IMG/VR virus record: IMGVR_UViG_3300042197_003224
Location: 1-22,619 of that record
DNA from: a virus
Direction: 5' to 3' (one strand)
Length of the DNA: 22,619 nucleotides
The translations under genes and the position numbers were made by a program. Each line of letters starts with the position of its first letter. Position 1 is the first letter of the stretch. Below, in pieces: positions 4,622-21,418 of the stretch. The notes beneath the pieces were generated by a model. The model was given only the letters and a program-made list of their open reading frames with translations, made no database searches and had not been told where the DNA came from.

Positions 4622-6586
4622 ATGAGTAACGACCAACATAGCCTTCCGACAGCGTATCAGCAGTTCATTCACCTTAGCAGATACAGTCGGTGGCTTTCAG
4701 AAATGGGTCGGCGTGAGACTTGGACGGAAACGGTTGATCGTTACTTCAACTTCTTTGACAAGCATCTAAAAGACAATCAGAACTTCAAGTTGCCCAAAGA
4801 AATCCGCGGGGAACTTCGCACAGCAGTTCTCAACCTTGAGGTGCTTCCATCCATGCGCTGTCTCATGACGGCAGGAGAGGCACTTGAGCGTGACAACATC
4901 GCGGGATACAACTGCTCGTATGCACATGTCAATCGTGTCCGTGCATTCGATGAGATTCTGTATGTTTTGATGTGTGGCACAGGCGTGGGCTTCTCGGTTG
5001 AGCGTGAATTTATTGAAAAGTTGCCAACTATTGCAGAAGAGTTTTCTGATACGGATACGACCATCATTGTTGCTGACTCCAAGCAGGGTTGGGCAAAAGC
5101 ATACCGCGAACTGATCTCGCTCCTCATCGTGGGACAGGTGCCCAAGTGGGATCTATCGAAGGTTCGTCCTGCGGGGGCAAGACTGAAAGTTTTCGGTGGA
5201 AGGGCAAGCGGCTCTCGCCCCCTAAACGATCTGTTCGTGTTCACAGTAGAGACATTCAAGAAGGCGGCGGGTCGCAAGTTGACATCCATCGAATGCCATG
5301 ACATTGTCTGCAAGATCGCCGAGATCGTTGTGGTTGGTGGTGTTCGTCGCTCGGCACTTATTAGTCTTTCCAACCTCACAGACGAGCGTATGCGCGATGC
5401 TAAGAGCGGTGCTTGGTGGGAAGCAAATCCACAACGGGCACTTGCAAACAATAGCGTTGCATACAAGGAGAAACCTGAAATTGGCACCTTCATGGAGGAG
5501 TGGATCTCTCTCTACAAGTCTAAGAGTGGTGAGCGTGGTATCTTCAACCGTGCCGCAGCGCAGAAGACTGTTGCCAAGTTGGGCGACCGCCGCGATTCAA
5601 CTCATGCATTTGGGACTAATCCATGCAGCGAGATTATCCTGCGCGACCGCGAGTTCTGCAACTTGACCGAAGTGGTTGTTCGTGAGAACGATACGGAGGA
5701 AAGCCTGAAGCGCAAGGTTCGCCTTGCCACCATTCTCGGCACGATGCAAGCCTCGCTGACTAACTTCCAATACATCTCTTCGGAGTGGGCAAAGAACTGC
5801 CGCGAGGAAGCCCTACTTGGCGTGTCGCTGACAGGCATCCTTGATTGCAAGTTGACTAATGGACAATCGGGAAGTGGGATCGATGATGAACTCGGTCTGT
5901 CTATGTTACTTTTTGATCTTCGTCAGTTGGCTGTCACCACAAACTCGGAGTGGGCTAATCTGATCGGAATCAATCCCTCCGCAGCGATCACTTGCGTCAA
6001 GCCCTCGGGAACCGTGTCTCAGTTGACGGACGCAGCCTCGGGCATCCATGCCCGTCACGCGCCCTATTACATCCGTACCGTCCGCGCAGACAACAAGGAT
6101 CCGCTGTGTCAGATGATGAAGGAAATGGGCTTCCCAAATGAAGCCGATGTCATGAAGCCCGAACACACCACGGTCTTCTCATTCCCAATGAAGTCTCCTG
6201 AGGGTTCAGTGTTCCGCAAGAACATGACTGCAATTGAACACCTGAACCTATGGCTCGTCTATCAGCGTAGTTGGTGTGAACACAAGCCGTCGATCACCGT
6301 CACAGTCAAAGAAAACGAGTGGATGGATGTTGGGGCATGGGTTTACAACCACTTCGATGAGGTGTCGGGAATCTCGTTCCTGCCCTTTGCCGATCACTCA
6401 TATCGTCAGGCCCCATATCAAGACTGCACAAAGGAAGAATACGAAGCCCTCCTTGCCAAGATGCCAAAGGATGTAAATTGGAGTCTCCTTTCGAATTATG
6501 AAAAGGAAGACAATACAGTCGGAAACCAAACATTTGCTTGCTCGGGCGATAAGTGTGAGGTGGTTGACTTGACTCGGACGGGCTAA
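4622..6586 (+). CDS. nrdJ: Adenosylcobalamin-dependent ribonucleoside-triphosphate reductase (class II)
   Basis: This enzyme reduces ribonucleoside triphosphates to dNTPs in the cytoplasm using vitamin B12 as radical source, feeding phage replication. The key residues of the monomeric RTPR family are present: C98 (GYNCSY) and C346 (FCNLTE) as the redox pair, C335 and E337 in NPCSEI as radical cysteine and acid, and the C-terminal shuttle pair C640/C645 (CSGDKC). From memory these match C119, C408, E410, C419, C731 and C736 of the Lactobacillus leichmannii enzyme, with the same spacing between C335-C346 and C640-C645. GVRRSALISLSN is a further family motif. At 654 residues it is about 85 shorter than that enzyme, with about 50 residues missing between the first two cysteines, so effector control may differ. 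CAGGAG upstream sets the start. Confidence 0.93.
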   Translation: MSNDQHSLPTAYQQFIHLSRYSRWLSEMGRRETWTETVDRYFNFFDKHLKDNQNFKLPKEIRGELRTAVLNLEVLPSMRCLMTAGEALERDNIAGYNCSYAHVNRVRAFDEILYVLMCGTGVGFSVEREFIEKLPTIAEEFSDTDTTIIVADSKQGWAKAYRELISLLIVGQVPKWDLSKVRPAGARLKVFGGRASGSRPLNDLFVFTVETFKKAAGRKLTSIECHDIVCKIAEIVVVGGVRRSALISLSNLTDERMRDAKSGAWWEANPQRALANNSVAYKEKPEIGTFMEEWISLYKSKSGERGIFNRAAAQKTVAKLGDRRDSTHAFGTNPCSEIILRDREFCNLTEVVVRENDTEESLKRKVRLATILGTMQASLTNFQYISSEWAKNCREEALLGVSLTGILDCKLTNGQSGSGIDDELGLSMLLFDLRQLAVTTNSEWANLIGINPSAAITCVKPSGTVSQLTDAASGIHARHAPYYIRTVRADNKDPLCQMMKEMGFPNEADVMKPEHTTVFSFPMKSPEGSVFRKNMTAIEHLNLWLVYQRSWCEHKPSITVTVKENEWMDVGAWVYNHFDEVSGISFLPFADHSYRQAPYQDCTKEEYEALLAKMPKDVNWSLLSNYEKEDNTVGNQTFACSGDKCEVVDLTRTG

Positions 6587-8469: not shown

Positions 8470-10683
8470 ATGGCAAACGACTACTATCAGATTTACAATC
8501 ATGCCTATTCGTTCTCGTCCAGTACGGTGAACTCGGGCGGTCTCACCTACTCCCTACCACAGAACGACTACGGCATCTACGGACAGCATGTCGATGCCTT
8601 CTTCAACACGATTAGCCGCAGCGCAGGAGCCACAGGGAGCCTCGCTGTGTGGTTTGTCTCGGACAAGGGGCTGACCTTCTATACTCACTCCCTCGGGGCT
8701 ACAGCGGCAATTACGGGCTATGTACAGGGTCGCTTCCCCGTGACCTCCTCCACGACAGGACTCGGTCTAATCGACCTCAGAGGCTCCCCTGATTGGACGA
8801 AGATTGTTGGAGATGGAATCGTTGGCCCGACTCGCGGTTCCACGGGATCTGTGGCAGGGGCAAACGCGACTCAGTATGTAAACGGAATCAAAGCAGTCTT
8901 TGGAGTACTAAAAAGCCAATACCCAAAAATCGATTGGGCTATTGCTGGTTTGCCTCATCTTCCATATGTGATGGCATATGCCCCTCCAATCGGACAGTCT
9001 CCTGTGTGGGATGCTTCGCTTACGAATAGCGGCGGCTATACGGCACCAACATGGTGGGATCCTGCACATCCAACAGGAAGCAGCGCAGCCAATTTCTATA
9101 GTTGGATTGATGCCCCACAGGAGTTACAAGAATTCTATGAAAAAGTTGTTACCGATGGAATTCAAGAAATGGTATTCGATAACTGCGCAGTTGATTGGCT
9201 GTGCCCCGACATTCGTGTTCCTTATACAGACTCGTTGCCTTTCTACGAGTATGGAAACAATTATAACTCAAACTATAACAGAAACAAAAAACTGTGTGAA
9301 CTGTCGTTTACAAAAGCACGAAGTCTATTAGTACAAACTTATCCGCTGTTGTCAACGATGTATCCTTCTCGACCATTGACTCGTTATGATGATCCTAAAT
9401 CTCAATACACGATTACAAATCAAGTTACGGGCAATAATTACATTAACATCGATGGGTCTTCGTATGTGGGCGTGACAGCAAATGCATCTGAGGATTACTA
9501 TTCTTCATTAACATATCGACATGATATGCTTCAAGCAGCAATCGATGGAAACTCTGATGGGTTCATCTTCTTTGATCCGATGCCATCAGTAATAGAAATT
9601 GCATGCACAGGAGATATTGCCGTAGGTGCAACTGGCTACGATGCACAGATACGCGCAAGAAATATGTTCTCTTCGATGATGTATGGAGGAACATATGTAG
9701 ATGGATATGTGCCTTCGGGCAGCGGATACGCAGATCCATGTGTGAAAGCAGAACTGCTTCGGTTCGCTTCAAAAAGAACTGTTGGGTATTTGGATGATAT
9801 TCGCGAAAGCGTTAATCTAGCGGGTCATGGAAACAGTGATAAAGGAAATCTGAGTGGTTGGATTCGCGGGGCGAAGAATCCAATACTAAAGGAAGTCACA
9901 TACGACATTAAAGATTCATCTAATACAACTGCTAGTGATTCGATATACGGAGAACAGTATTGGCAACAGAAGCAAATGGTAGATTGTGAATGCCCCATCG
10001 ATTGCGAGTCACCCAATAATCCTTATAGGACTCAAGGCGGGGCGATGGGATGTTGTTGTATTTCACTTTATCGGTTTAGACCATTTAGTGATAAATGCCT
10101 TTGCCCACCTTGGATGATTAGGGGCGTTTCGATTAACTCTGATCAATGTAACACCTACGCCGCAAACTGTGAGTGTGAGACTTTTACGGTTAATCTTGCT
10201 GGTTTCTTTAGTAATGACCCCGAATGTGAAAATTCTACCTGTATACCGTCTGTTGGAATACAAAGTTCATGTAACTGTTTAAATTTTACTTTCGAAGGAG
10301 GCATTTGTGATAACCCACCTTGTCTTATCTGTACTTGCGATGGTACTGAAGAAGACCTGATTGAAACTTGCGACGATGCGGTTCCACTCACTGAAGGTAA
10401 GAAAAATATTTGGAAAGAAATCGATTATGCTCTCATATTAGACATGAAAACCTACAAAAGATCGTCATTTGATACAAAAACATTCTTACTCACCCGAAGC
10501 AACAACGAAAAGTATTCAAACTGGAGTGCGATATACAAAAATATTTTGACCCCTTTAAGACATCCATCACTTATCCAAGCGAGAGTAACAATTCTAAAAC
10601 CAACGGTTTCAACTGCTGCTCTGCGAACACAATTTAACAAGGAAGTGCTACGGCATCTGCCTAATCAATACTTCACAACCTAA
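8470..10683 (+). CDS. Large putative virion protein with cysteine-rich C-terminal domain
   Basis: 737 residues, not assignable to a named family. Residues 1-140 are Ser/Thr/Gly-rich, like phage surface proteins. Residues about 140-420 have alternating strands and helices with motifs such as LKSQYPKIDWAIAGLPHLPY, EFYEKVVTDGIQEMVFDN and DGNSDGFIFFDP; these resemble beta-alpha repeats of a TIM-barrel, glycosidase-like fold, but I see no secure catalytic pair. Residues 506-634 hold 20 cysteines in 129 residues (DCECPIDCE, GCCC, KCLC, NCEC, SCNC, CTCDG), clearly set apart. The last 100 residues are basic and Cys-free. It is preceded by a late-like promoter and stands alone between the accessory cassette and gp46. 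A virion-borne enzyme or adhesin with a disulfide- or metal-stabilised domain is the best inference. Confidence 0.72.
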   Translation: MANDYYQIYNHAYSFSSSTVNSGGLTYSLPQNDYGIYGQHVDAFFNTISRSAGATGSLAVWFVSDKGLTFYTHSLGATAAITGYVQGRFPVTSSTTGLGLIDLRGSPDWTKIVGDGIVGPTRGSTGSVAGANATQYVNGIKAVFGVLKSQYPKIDWAIAGLPHLPYVMAYAPPIGQSPVWDASLTNSGGYTAPTWWDPAHPTGSSAANFYSWIDAPQELQEFYEKVVTDGIQEMVFDNCAVDWLCPDIRVPYTDSLPFYEYGNNYNSNYNRNKKLCELSFTKARSLLVQTYPLLSTMYPSRPLTRYDDPKSQYTITNQVTGNNYINIDGSSYVGVTANASEDYYSSLTYRHDMLQAAIDGNSDGFIFFDPMPSVIEIACTGDIAVGATGYDAQIRARNMFSSMMYGGTYVDGYVPSGSGYADPCVKAELLRFASKRTVGYLDDIRESVNLAGHGNSDKGNLSGWIRGAKNPILKEVTYDIKDSSNTTASDSIYGEQYWQQKQMVDCECPIDCESPNNPYRTQGGAMGCCCISLYRFRPFSDKCLCPPWMIRGVSINSDQCNTYAANCECETFTVNLAGFFSNDPECENSTCIPSVGIQSSCNCLNFTFEGGICDNPPCLICTCDGTEEDLIETCDDAVPLTEGKKNIWKEIDYALILDMKTYKRSSFDTKTFLLTRSNNEKYSNWSAIYKNILTPLRHPSLIQARVTILKPTVSTAALRTQFNKEVLRHLPNQYFTT

Positions 10684-12933: not shown

Positions 12934-14658
12934 TTATGCCGTGAAGTCTATTGTGATAGTGGTTCCGATTTCATCATTCGATTCGGGCTGTAGATATGGT
13001 TTGTTTACAAACTTATCAAATCCACCTTCGCTGATCTTTATACCTACGCTAGGATTGGTGTTTCTCAACTGTGCCCGTCTTGATTTTGATTTGGGCACAA
13101 CACTTCCAAAAGGAATTGAAGGATAGGGATATGTCTGATTCGTATCCTCAGTTTTTCTAGTCAGTGACACACTCTTTGCCGACACACCTGAAAGAGAAAG
13201 GTATTGATTAAGGAAAGAGATGGGAGTCCATGTTGTGCCCCACGGGAATGTGATTGGCTTGCTTGAACCGATCCCCGTGCCGCGAAGCGATGCAAACGCA
13301 ACCAACTTCTTAGGATCTGAATAATGGGTATATCCTGCTCCAGTTACTAATCCAAGGAACACGGGATTTCCATGGTAGTAAGTAATGACGGGAGACCCAT
13401 TGTCGCCGCGAACAACGGCGATGGTTCTTAATGTGTTCGCCATTTCATGCAATTCTGATGAGGGGATGTTTGCACATGCATCAGATCCCTTAAACAGCAA
13501 GGTCGGGAGAATAGTAGGATTGAATAAACTTCCTGTAAATGGTGGGCAGAATGTTCCATGATGCCCTCTTGCTTCTTGACCGATTGCCAATCCATAGAAA
13601 ATGGGGTCGCTTTGATAAGCGTCGATCAGACCGATTGGAGTGATGTCGTTCGGCAGATTCGTGGTAAAGGTGATGATCTTGATGTCATCAAAGTATGCAG
13701 CCATCTCGTTGTACTTCGCTAAGATTTCTGTGCTGCTATTTTCATTAACAAACCCAATAGCATCCCACATCTGCTTGAATGTATTGATGGAAGTTGAAAC
13801 CGTGGGGGTTACGAATCCGCTGGCACCTGAGTAAAAGCGGAGGTTTGAATTGTCGATATCTGCGGACGCAGACACAATTGCATGTCTGCTGCTGATCAGC
13901 ACGGCAGAGACTCCCTTGCCGCTGTTACTTTTCATACTGTATGGAATCGGTCTCTTGAAACGGTTCCTTGTATTAATCCATGTGTAGTCCAAATTTTTGT
14001 ATGGTGTCTTGTTCATAAACAAGGAATTGAACGGCGTTGTCACATCAACGATTGTTCGTGGTTGGTCTGAGTATTTGAACAGGTTGAGATGAACGGGAGA
14101 GAATAAATACTCATAGTAAGAACCCTTGAGGCTACCATTACAATCCATTCCATTCAATTTATTTACTGCTGTTGCTCCTTCGCAGATACATTCGATTTCT
14201 TTAGTGAATCCTTTGAACGGGCCTGCATAGAATCTTTTCGCGCCGCTGATTTCACCAACAATGATCGATCCATTCAACAAGAATGAATCGATCCCATTAT
14301 CGGCAGTAATCCCCCTGTCTGAAATAGGTCTAAGCCCCGTATTGAATGTTGGAACAGTTGTGATATCGATCTCACTCTGATATGGAAATACAGAGTCGGG
14401 ATTGATGACCAATCCTACATTTTCTGTGCGACTATTCGATCTTTCTCGCTCCTGCGTAAAGATACCGAGAACAGTTGCTCCAAGATGTGAGTCAAATTGG
14501 AAATTGGAACCGCTGTTTCCATGGTCGGGGGGGTAGAGCAACTGTAGTTTCTCCCCCGCAACGAACGGCTTCGTGAAGTCTGTGCTTACGAAAGTGTCAT
14601 ACCCAAATATGTTCCCCGCCGCAATGACAGTTGCCTTGCAGTCATGTCCGAACATCAT
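12934..14658 (-). CDS. Trypsin-fold protein with apparently lost catalytic residues (pseudo-protease), probable virion protein
   Basis: 574 residues from the ATG at 14658, which overlaps the upstream stop as ATGA; a TTG 21 bases further upstream is possible but less likely. Residues about 250-440 look like a chymotrypsin-type domain. AVLISSRHAIVSAS (252-265) matches the usual LIS-x-RH-x-(L/I)-x-A-x-H strand, but Ser stands where the catalytic His belongs. FDDIKIITF (323-331) fits the Asp strand. RGDNGSPVI (417-425) matches GDSGSP with Asn in place of the nucleophile Ser, followed by the expected FLGLVTGAG strand. Near the N-terminus, HGNSGS (46-51) followed by ATVLGIFTQ resembles another Ser-strand region. 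The C-terminal 100 residues are beta-like. No signal peptide is seen. Two losses together suggest a non-catalytic binding or structural role; this is by-eye alignment. Confidence 0.65.
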   Translation of the reverse strand: MMFGHDCKATVIAAGNIFGYDTFVSTDFTKPFVAGEKLQLLYPPDHGNSGSNFQFDSHLGATVLGIFTQERERSNSRTENVGLVINPDSVFPYQSEIDITTVPTFNTGLRPISDRGITADNGIDSFLLNGSIIVGEISGAKRFYAGPFKGFTKEIECICEGATAVNKLNGMDCNGSLKGSYYEYLFSPVHLNLFKYSDQPRTIVDVTTPFNSLFMNKTPYKNLDYTWINTRNRFKRPIPYSMKSNSGKGVSAVLISSRHAIVSASADIDNSNLRFYSGASGFVTPTVSTSINTFKQMWDAIGFVNENSSTEILAKYNEMAAYFDDIKIITFTTNLPNDITPIGLIDAYQSDPIFYGLAIGQEARGHHGTFCPPFTGSLFNPTILPTLLFKGSDACANIPSSELHEMANTLRTIAVVRGDNGSPVITYYHGNPVFLGLVTGAGYTHYSDPKKLVAFASLRGTGIGSSKPITFPWGTTWTPISFLNQYLSLSGVSAKSVSLTRKTEDTNQTYPYPSIPFGSVVPKSKSRRAQLRNTNPSVGIKISEGGFDKFVNKPYLQPESNDEIGTTITIDFTA

Positions 14659-14873
14659 GTGATACCCCCCGAACTCCAATTTGCGTTCTTTAGTTTGCCG
14701 ATTTCTACCCGCGAAGGAGACTTGTTCTTCAGTTGGATTACAGACGGCTTCTTTGCCTTGTTGGACTCACCTGTCTTGAGGGACATCACGGGGGTAGTGT
14801 CTCCACTACCGCTCGTTGGAACGGTACTCCACTCCTTGATGTCCTGAATCAGCGTGTTGTAGTGTTTAGGCAT
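14655..14873 (-). CDS. Small protein, 72 aa, upstream partner of the trypsin-fold gene
   Basis: Not recognised. It is basic and low in hydrophobics, with the sequence MPKHYNTLIQDIKEWSTVPTS at the start and a Ser/Lys-rich second half (GESNKAKKPSVIQLKNKSPSR). The ATG lies 10 bases after the gp47 stop with no clear Shine-Dalgarno sequence; a late-like GCTAAATA overlaps the gp47 stop. Its TGA overlaps the ATG of the 574-residue gene (ATGA), so the two are probably co-translated and may act together. Disorder in the second half is likely. It could be a small linker or head/tail accessory, but there is no direct evidence. A frameshifted fusion with the following gene is possible; the ATGA overlap makes separate genes the simpler reading. 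Confidence 0.6.
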   Translation of the reverse strand: MPKHYNTLIQDIKEWSTVPTSGSGDTTPVMSLKTGESNKAKKPSVIQLKNKSPSRVEIGKLKNANWSSGGIT

Positions 14874-20265: not shown

Positions 20266-20478
20266 ATGAAAAACAACGAAACAACACAGAAAAAAGCACC
20301 GCAGCAAAAAGTTTGGCTGAAGGACGAGCAAAACACCGCTATTGTTCGGCGGATAGAGATGCACCCTAATTGGGGTAAGCAGTATCTCGTTACAACCTAC
20401 AGCCATGAGTGGGGCCCCGATACTTATTGGGTTAAAGAAAAAAATGTCGAACTGATGGGGGTGCAGCACAATGGCTAA
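20266..20478 (+). CDS. Small hydrophilic early protein, 70 aa
   Basis: Not recognised. The N-terminal 18 residues are polar and basic (MKNNETTQKKAPQQKVW). The remainder looks like a small beta barrel: NTAIVRRIEMHPNWGKQYLVTTYS and HEWGPDTYWVKEKNVELM, strands separated by short turns. The early promoter is 40 bases upstream and the leader is A-rich with no evident Shine-Dalgarno sequence; AACTTT and AAAGTT in the leader could form a weak stem. It is the first gene of the cluster and overlaps the next by 8 bases. Small early phage proteins of this kind often modify host functions, but no target can be proposed from the sequence. Confidence 0.7.
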   Translation: MKNNETTQKKAPQQKVWLKDEQNTAIVRRIEMHPNWGKQYLVTTYSHEWGPDTYWVKEKNVELMGVQHNG

Positions 20479-20875
20479 GTCAATCAAGAAGCGCGTGGTC
20501 AAGACCGTCAAGAAAGTTACGCACGCACCCGCGCCCGTGCGCGAGGCAGAACCTGTGATCGATGTAAAGCCCATCGACAGTAACAAATACGACAAAATCA
20601 AGATCAAACCATCATATGTAATGGTGGGTAAAAAAAGCATGTACAATGCCGATTCATGGCTTGGACTTGGTTGGACAGTCCTAAGACATTGTCTGTGGCA
20701 TCTTGATGAAAAGCCCATCGACAGTAACAAATACGACAAAATCAAGATTGCACCGTCCTATATCATGGAATGTGAAGCAGGCGTGTACCATGCCAAGTCA
20801 TGGCTTGGACTTGGTTGGGCAATCTTCACACACCGTCTGTGGCATCTTTGGAACGATGGTTCCTTCAAGGACTGA
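20471..20875 (+). CDS. Protein with internal tandem duplication, 134 aa
   Basis: Not recognised as a family. After a basic N-terminus (MAKSIKKRVVKTVKKVTHAP) come two copies of a 48-residue unit. Each begins KPIDSNKYDKIKI and continues with PSY-(V/I)-M, Y-(N/H)-A, SWLGLGW, then R-x-LWHL. The copies are about 60-65% identical and near-identical in DNA at three blocks. SWLGLGW is a short hydrophobic, tryptophan-rich stretch that may bind a membrane surface or pack two repeats together. The start overlaps the preceding gene by 8 bases and the end is 3 bases before the next start, so it belongs to the early cluster. The duplication looks recent, since silent positions are conserved. Role unknown. 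Confidence 0.75.
   Translation: MAKSIKKRVVKTVKKVTHAPAPVREAEPVIDVKPIDSNKYDKIKIKPSYVMVGKKSMYNADSWLGLGWTVLRHCLWHLDEKPIDSNKYDKIKIAPSYIMECEAGVYHAKSWLGLGWAIFTHRLWHLWNDGSFKD
20566..20853 (+). repeat. Two tandem 144-bp direct repeats
   Basis: Copy 1 is 20566-20709 and copy 2 is 20710-20853. Identical blocks at offset 144 are 20566-20604 with 20710-20748 (39 bases), 20654-20674 with 20798-20818 (21 bases), and the GTCTGTGGCATCTT block at 20691 with 20835. Between these the copies have diverged. Confidence 0.9.
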
Positions 20876-20878
20876 TAC

Positions 20879-21418
20879 ATGAACATCTTCGTAGTGCAAT
20901 CCTCACCGCATGAAGCGGCGCGGGATCTTTGCGACAAGCATGTCGTGAAGATGATCGTTGAAAGCGCACAAATGCTTTCTACGGCTCACCGTGTGCTTGA
21001 CGGCGAACCCACCATCCGTCTATCCAAAAACGGTCGCAAGATCAAGCATTGGATTCACCCCGAGTACGACGATGTACTTTGTCTTGCGACAATGGTCAAC
21101 CACCCATGCACACGATGGGCAATGGAGACTTCGTCCAACTACGATTGGCTTTGGCACCATGCACAAGGTCTAATGTCTGAGTACACCAAGCGGTATGGTA
21201 AAAAGCATTCGATGAATAAACTGATGGGCATTCTTGCAGAGTGCCCCAACAACATCAAGAATGGGCAGTTGACTCCGTTTGCCCAAGCAATGCCCGAACA
21301 GTATCGCTGTGAAAATGCCGTCACGGCGTATCGCAAGTACTACATCGGCGAAAAGAAGCGTTTTGCCAAATGGGCGAAGACCCCTGTTCCATTGTGGTTT
21401 GCTAGCGAAGTCGTATAA
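20879..21418 (+). CDS. Conserved phage protein (DKHVVKM family), unknown function
   Basis: 179 residues. The N-terminal block NIFVVQSSPHEAARDLCDKHVVKMIVESAQMLSTAHR is, from memory, the signature of a family found in many T4-like phages and in large DNA viruses, always annotated as hypothetical. Other conserved-looking blocks are HPCTRWAMETSSNYDWLWHHAQGLMSEYTKRYGKKH and YRKYYIGEKKRFAKWAKTPVPLWF, with many aromatic, His and Arg/Lys residues. This composition and the conserved C, D, K and H of DLCDKH suggest an enzyme or nucleic-acid-binding protein, but no catalytic set is established. AAGGA lies 7 bases before the ATG. The gene ends in a TAA that forms a perfect TATAAATA with the following bases. 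Confidence 0.8.
   Translation: MNIFVVQSSPHEAARDLCDKHVVKMIVESAQMLSTAHRVLDGEPTIRLSKNGRKIKHWIHPEYDDVLCLATMVNHPCTRWAMETSSNYDWLWHHAQGLMSEYTKRYGKKHSMNKLMGILAECPNNIKNGQLTPFAQAMPEQYRCENAVTAYRKYYIGEKKRFAKWAKTPVPLWFASEVV

Follow-up and report, generated by a model that had tools for sequence, protein, structure and literature searches.

A 574-aa protein of a T4-like phage is best read as a pseudo-protease, a trypsin-fold homologue of intact proteases in which the catalytic His and Ser have been lost, with the fold probably retained for binding or structure rather than for cutting. Proteases that have lost their activity are familiar from animals; the protein described here would be one in a phage. Its gene lies in a window of 22,619 bases (the whole stretch of DNA analysed, a virus record) that also has T4-like genes for the UvsW helicase and for SbcC- and SbcD-like gp46/gp47, together with an ORF that we take to be gp55-like. 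The UvsW of the window is less than 60% identical to each of the 3122 matching phage records. Features of the gene and its product are collected in Table 1.

Fourteen viral contigs carry relatives of the protein, at 42-100% identity; the contig of one of them, L021, stops short of the trypsin-like domain. Of the 14 domain-bearing records, L002 has a protein with 100% identity to that of the window, and L017-L019 are near-copies. Lengths range from 507 aa in L020, through 574-578 aa in some members, to about 800 aa in L015-L018. No relatives were found in phage records by tblastn and, for this family and its intact counterpart alike, none in prokaryote contigs by pattern-based scans. Searches of Pfam, PHROG and PDB sequences with the protein and with its family found nothing in Pfam or the PDB and nothing of use in PHROG, and none of 12 members matches the curated Pfam Trypsin profile. 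The N-terminal residues 1-204, for which there was likewise no Pfam or PHROG match, reach just E 0.6 against the intact domain in hhalign. A GNSGS at residues 47-51, considered as a second nucleophile motif, is absent in L007 and L008 and was taken as chance. The related gene at L004:4965-5147 loses its reading frame close to the start, possibly through an assembly error.

Table 1. Location of the pseudo-protease gene, its parts and the ORF upstream (window coordinates)
Feature	Position	Strand	Basis or remark
Pseudo-protease gene, 574 aa	12934..14658, stop included	(-)	ORF; ATG 14656-14658, stop 12934-12936
72-aa ORF, conserved, directly upstream	14655..14873	(-)	Its stop overlaps the pseudo-protease gene ATG
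N-terminal region, conserved, residues 1-204	14047..14658	(-)	Alignment A2
Predicted trypsin-like domain, residues about 212-493	13180..14025	(-)	AlphaFold2; VIA range 8-289, model starting at residue 205
Variable C-terminus, residues 494-574	12937..13179	(-)	Tails of a few hundred residues instead in L015-L018
S265 codon, catalytic His position	13864..13866	(-)	Alignment A6
D325 codon, catalytic Asp position	13684..13686	(-)	Alignment A6
N420 codon, nucleophile position, RGDNGSP	13399..13401	(-)	Alignment A6
Insertion TFKQMWDAIGFVNEN, residues 293-307	13738..13782	(-)	Residues invariant in 10/10 pseudo-protease rows, gaps in 16/16 intact rows
QEARGHHGTFCPP, residues 361-373	13540..13578	(-)	Q, E, R, G, H, H, F, C, P, P invariant in 10/10 pseudo-protease rows

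With what can such a domain be compared? A Pfam Trypsin search over four contigs carrying relatives of the pseudo-protease led to two loci. P0002 (L026), in the contig of L010, has AVLISPRHALICQHF, GPDLTLLEF and GDSGSP together with a dockerin domain. The other Trypsin match (L025:1336-2082, in the contig of L017) is HtrA-like by eye, with a His-Asp-Ser set that looks intact, and belongs to a separate family. A search with the P0002 family gave a second intact homologue, L045, adjoining gp46 in the contig of L017, and further scans gave 29 intact loci and then two more. His, Asp and Ser are all kept in the 31 intact homologues aligned. Of seven of these proteins five match Pfam Trypsin, weakly (best E 0.11), and the match to a solved trypsin has an E of 1.1. 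Dockerin-like repeats were detected by a script pattern in 27 of 29 intact proteins, with Pfam confirmation covering P0002 alone. As an observation in its own right, L026 (P0002), L032-L037 and L047-L082 appear to be phage proteins that combine dockerin-like repeats with an intact trypsin-like domain, and neither phage records nor prokaryote contigs yielded relatives of such fusions. Gene neighbourhoods of the intact homologues in L056, L073 and L079 were not informative.

The pseudo-protease domain is homologous to these intact trypsin-like phage proteins. In hhalign the two domains score 46.2 in local and 53.4 in global mode, to be set against maxima of 26.6 and 10.0 in 200 column shuffles and against 17.0 and 3.1 when the alignment is reversed. 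Taken alone, the His region (E 2e-7) and the Ser region (E 1.7e-5) each carry the resemblance, with no profile signal against the intact domain from the Asp region alone (E 0.11). When an HMM of the intact set was run over the 2245 ORFs of all loci in the comparison, 13 pseudo-protease ORFs ranked above every unrelated ORF and directly behind the intact ones, with E-values from 2.1e-5 to 1 (2.7e-4 for the window protein, just 0.29-1 for L015-L019). The reverse search with an HMM of the pseudo-protease set gives a weaker signal: 23 of the 25 intact ORFs, the best at E 1.3e-4, exceed all unrelated ones, whereas L045 ranks lower than four unrelated ORFs and L092 is absent from the listed matches. 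In an unrooted tree, made without an outgroup and so with the direction of change assumed, the pseudo-protease rows lie on one side of a branch with support of 100/100 and a length of about 2 changes per column.

The preliminary description had placed Ser at the position of the catalytic His and Asn at that of the nucleophile, in an ORF at 12934-14658 with a LISSRHAIVSAS strand and an RGDNGSP loop, and had regarded two of three catalytic residues as replaced within an otherwise preserved nucleophile motif. The ORF, strand and loop are present as claimed, and in alignment A6 S265, D325 and N420, residues that it had itself numbered, share columns with the His, Asp and Ser of all 16 intact rows. 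The gap beside S265 is unstable: in each of four MAFFT modes on a trimmed set of 22 rows S265 stands opposite some residue that is not the catalytic His, with D325 opposite a gap in one of the four and N420 opposite the Ser in all of them. No His of the window protein enters the catalytic His column in these four modes, and the nearby H259 corresponds to a His that both families conserve and that is not catalytic. The losses run through all 14 domain-bearing records, the His position being taken by Ser, Glu or Asp and the nucleophile position by Asn, Val or Ile. They also reach further than first proposed, with the Asp position holding Asp in eight records, Gly in three and Asn in three. Around the nucleophile the Gly-Asp and Gly-Ser-Pro are indeed unchanged, Gly 418, Asp 419, Gly 421, Ser 422 and Pro 423 being invariant in the pseudo-protease family. 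Catalytic loss is a family trait older than the divergence of the sampled members. Each old triad column has three different residues among the 10 pseudo-protease rows; since 118 of the 251 domain columns, about half, have three or more, the triad columns are ordinary rather than exceptionally variable.

A chymotrypsin-type double-barrel fold is predicted for the domain. From a six-row full-length alignment that contained no intact homologues AlphaFold2 gave a poor model (pLDDT 33.5, pTM 0.27), and from residues 205-516 with 10 pseudo-protease and 16 intact rows a template-free one with a mean pLDDT of 76.3 and a pTM of 0.83; the confident model needed the intact homologues in its alignment, so that the evidence for fold and the evidence for homology are not fully independent. 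With this model Foldseek matched 532 PDB chains at E <= 0.001 (best E 2.3e-6), the best 50 of the 532 all being chymotrypsin-type, with low TM-scores (TMq 0.29-0.38) in those 50. The best VIA match has Z 13.0 (rmsd 3.6, 182 residues aligned), 978 of 1000 chains have a Z of at least 8, and the solved matches are chymotrypsin-type. Among predicted viral structures the best match to the domain model is an uncharacterised Caudovirales protein, at E 1.5e-6. The existence of intact homologues, the profile comparisons, the template-free model and the matches to solved structures all back the trypsin fold suggested at the outset, for which a Foldseek comparison and a structure prediction had been proposed.

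That the likeness of motifs is mere chance, with no trypsin fold behind it, could be argued from a family that matches nothing by sequence in Pfam, PHROG or the PDB and from the poor six-row model, but the shuffle controls, the HMM comparison, the combined model and the solved-structure matches speak otherwise and we hold it to be extremely doubtful.

What, then, has kept the domain? It is under purifying selection: between the window and L010 dN is 0.091 and dS 0.69 over the gene, or 0.069 and 0.72 over the domain, and dN/dS is low too in other pairs with unsaturated dS. Residues invariant in the pseudo-protease family stand opposite gaps in all 16 intact rows in segments 233-249, 293-313, 370-395 and 460-474. 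Purifying selection and new invariant segments together fit retention for binding or structure. The domain is also exchanged between phages. Identities between L015 and L016 are 97% for the domain, 72% for residues 1-205, 91% for UvsW and 84% for gp47, and L012, L013 and L015, with UvsW identities that round to 100%, share just 59-75% in the domain.

Variability by itself does not single out the gene. The most variable gene of the block is the 737-aa ORF; ORFs of 97, 123, 134 and 150 aa and one resembling pyrimidine dimer glycosylase vary as well, and these five match the variability of the pseudo-protease in some pairs. The late-promoter-like TATAAATA has no exact copy before the pseudo-protease gene, its sole exact match in the window being at 21414, and sites with one mismatch number 18 in the window where 13.5 are expected. 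Other genes of the window merit a mention for their own sake. The 737-aa ORF (8470-10683, plus strand) has C-terminal ~80 residues that recur in L045:1501-2733 (29% identity, E 3.0e-7) as the end of the intact protease adjoining gp46 in the contig of L017, and in that contig the 737-aa ORF is split. The ORF at 4622-6586 (plus strand) is ribonucleotide reductase-like and, in a T4-like setting, 64% identical to its counterpart in Puniceispirillum phage HMO-2011, annotated there as adenosylcobalamin-dependent. The 134-aa ORF (20471-20875, plus strand) has an internal repeat, KPIDSNKYDKIKI, present twice, and its homologues in other contigs are shorter.

Several other roles for the protein deserve weighing. 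A dead copy might pair with, protect or tune an intact phage protease, or soak up host protease inhibitors. An intact homologue does share a contig with the pseudo-protease in two of the seven pseudo-protease-carrying contigs searched (those of L010 and L017, the two longest), and in that of L017 its gene is on the far side of gp46. However, no intact copy was found in the other five, these being fragments, the pseudo-protease was found in none of 14 intact-carrying records searched, and there is no known inhibitor target; such regulation or decoy activity seems unlikely. Those 14 records gave a lone match (E 3.1e-5), to an intact protein of the L082 type, and this points to homology. An intracellular accessory of the recombination genes gp47 and gp46, with the trypsin fold as scaffold, would suit the fixed surroundings of the gene, which has the 72-aa ORF and gp47 upstream at 13 of 13 loci examined and a 106-aa ORF downstream at 10 of 10 where the contig continues, and would suit too the overlap of its start with the stop of the 72-aa ORF. 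Yet gp47 and gp46 are conserved and the pseudo-protease diverges and is exchanged, which leaves that role quite unlikely.

Might the chemistry simply have moved? The invariant Q-E-R-G-H-H-F-C-P-P segment, with C395, could be a new catalytic or metal site, those residues being unchanged in 10 of 10 pseudo-protease rows in which the old triad columns vary; but invariance by itself is no proof of catalysis, the model is at its poorest in this segment, with pLDDT 41-72 around it, and Cys and His may serve folding, so that we consider an enzyme of this sort very unlikely. A broader proposal, that a protease has turned into an exchangeable recognition module, would have the triad columns drifting, the new insertions (TFKxMWDxIGFxxEN, QExRGHHxxFCPP and GIGSxKxxxFxWG, each with its invariant residues) creating a functional site that is new and may have a chemistry or metal of its own, and intact copies persisting in the same phages; this, too, we find unlikely.

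The reading that we prefer, and to which we would give about an even chance of being right in full, is of a dead trypsin-fold domain within a larger T4-like phage protein, its catalytic machinery lost and its barrel put to another use. Such a domain would cleave no peptides by the serine-protease mechanism and would present partner-binding loops, the new insertions among them. Binding is the usual use of dead protease domains. The partner would more probably be a component of the host surface or of the virion than an intracellular one, and this is the weakest step in the argument, drawing as it does on a variability that several small neighbours match; neither the PHROG search nor the scan for the late-promoter-like site pointed to the virion place first suggested. 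We infer the binding or structural role, the lack of catalysis and the host-facing or virion place from the comparisons above.

With chymotrypsin- and trypsin-type proteases, which we take to be clan PA, the pseudo-protease shares the fold, the order of elements, the Gly-Asp-x-Gly-Ser-Pro loop and the strand before the His, and it differs from them in the loss of catalytic His and Ser (14/14 records) and of Asp (6/14), in the lack of a Pfam Trypsin match in any of 12 members and in its family-specific insertions. Its nearest sequence relatives are the intact phage homologues (P0002, L045, L047-L082, L091, L092), with which it has in common the strand that reads AVLISP(R/K)HA in the intact set, the loop that reads GDSGSP there and a C-terminal helix, and from which it is set apart by their complete triads (31/31), shorter length and, mostly, dockerin-like repeats. 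Protein Z and the hepatocyte growth factor beta chain, both VIA matches (Z 12.3-12.9) and presumably non-catalytic trypsin relatives, resemble it in having a trypsin fold with no working triad, whereas the phage protein is a separate lineage; VIA matches within 1 Z are tied, and imply no closer kinship to animal pseudo-proteases than to active proteases. Titles and abstracts on phage pseudoenzymes and on trypsin-like and dockerin-bearing proteins yielded no phage pseudo-protease and, in that part of the literature, no report of this family. With dead and intact versions in related phages, and sometimes in one contig, the shift away from cutting and towards another use is open to comparison and to laboratory tests.
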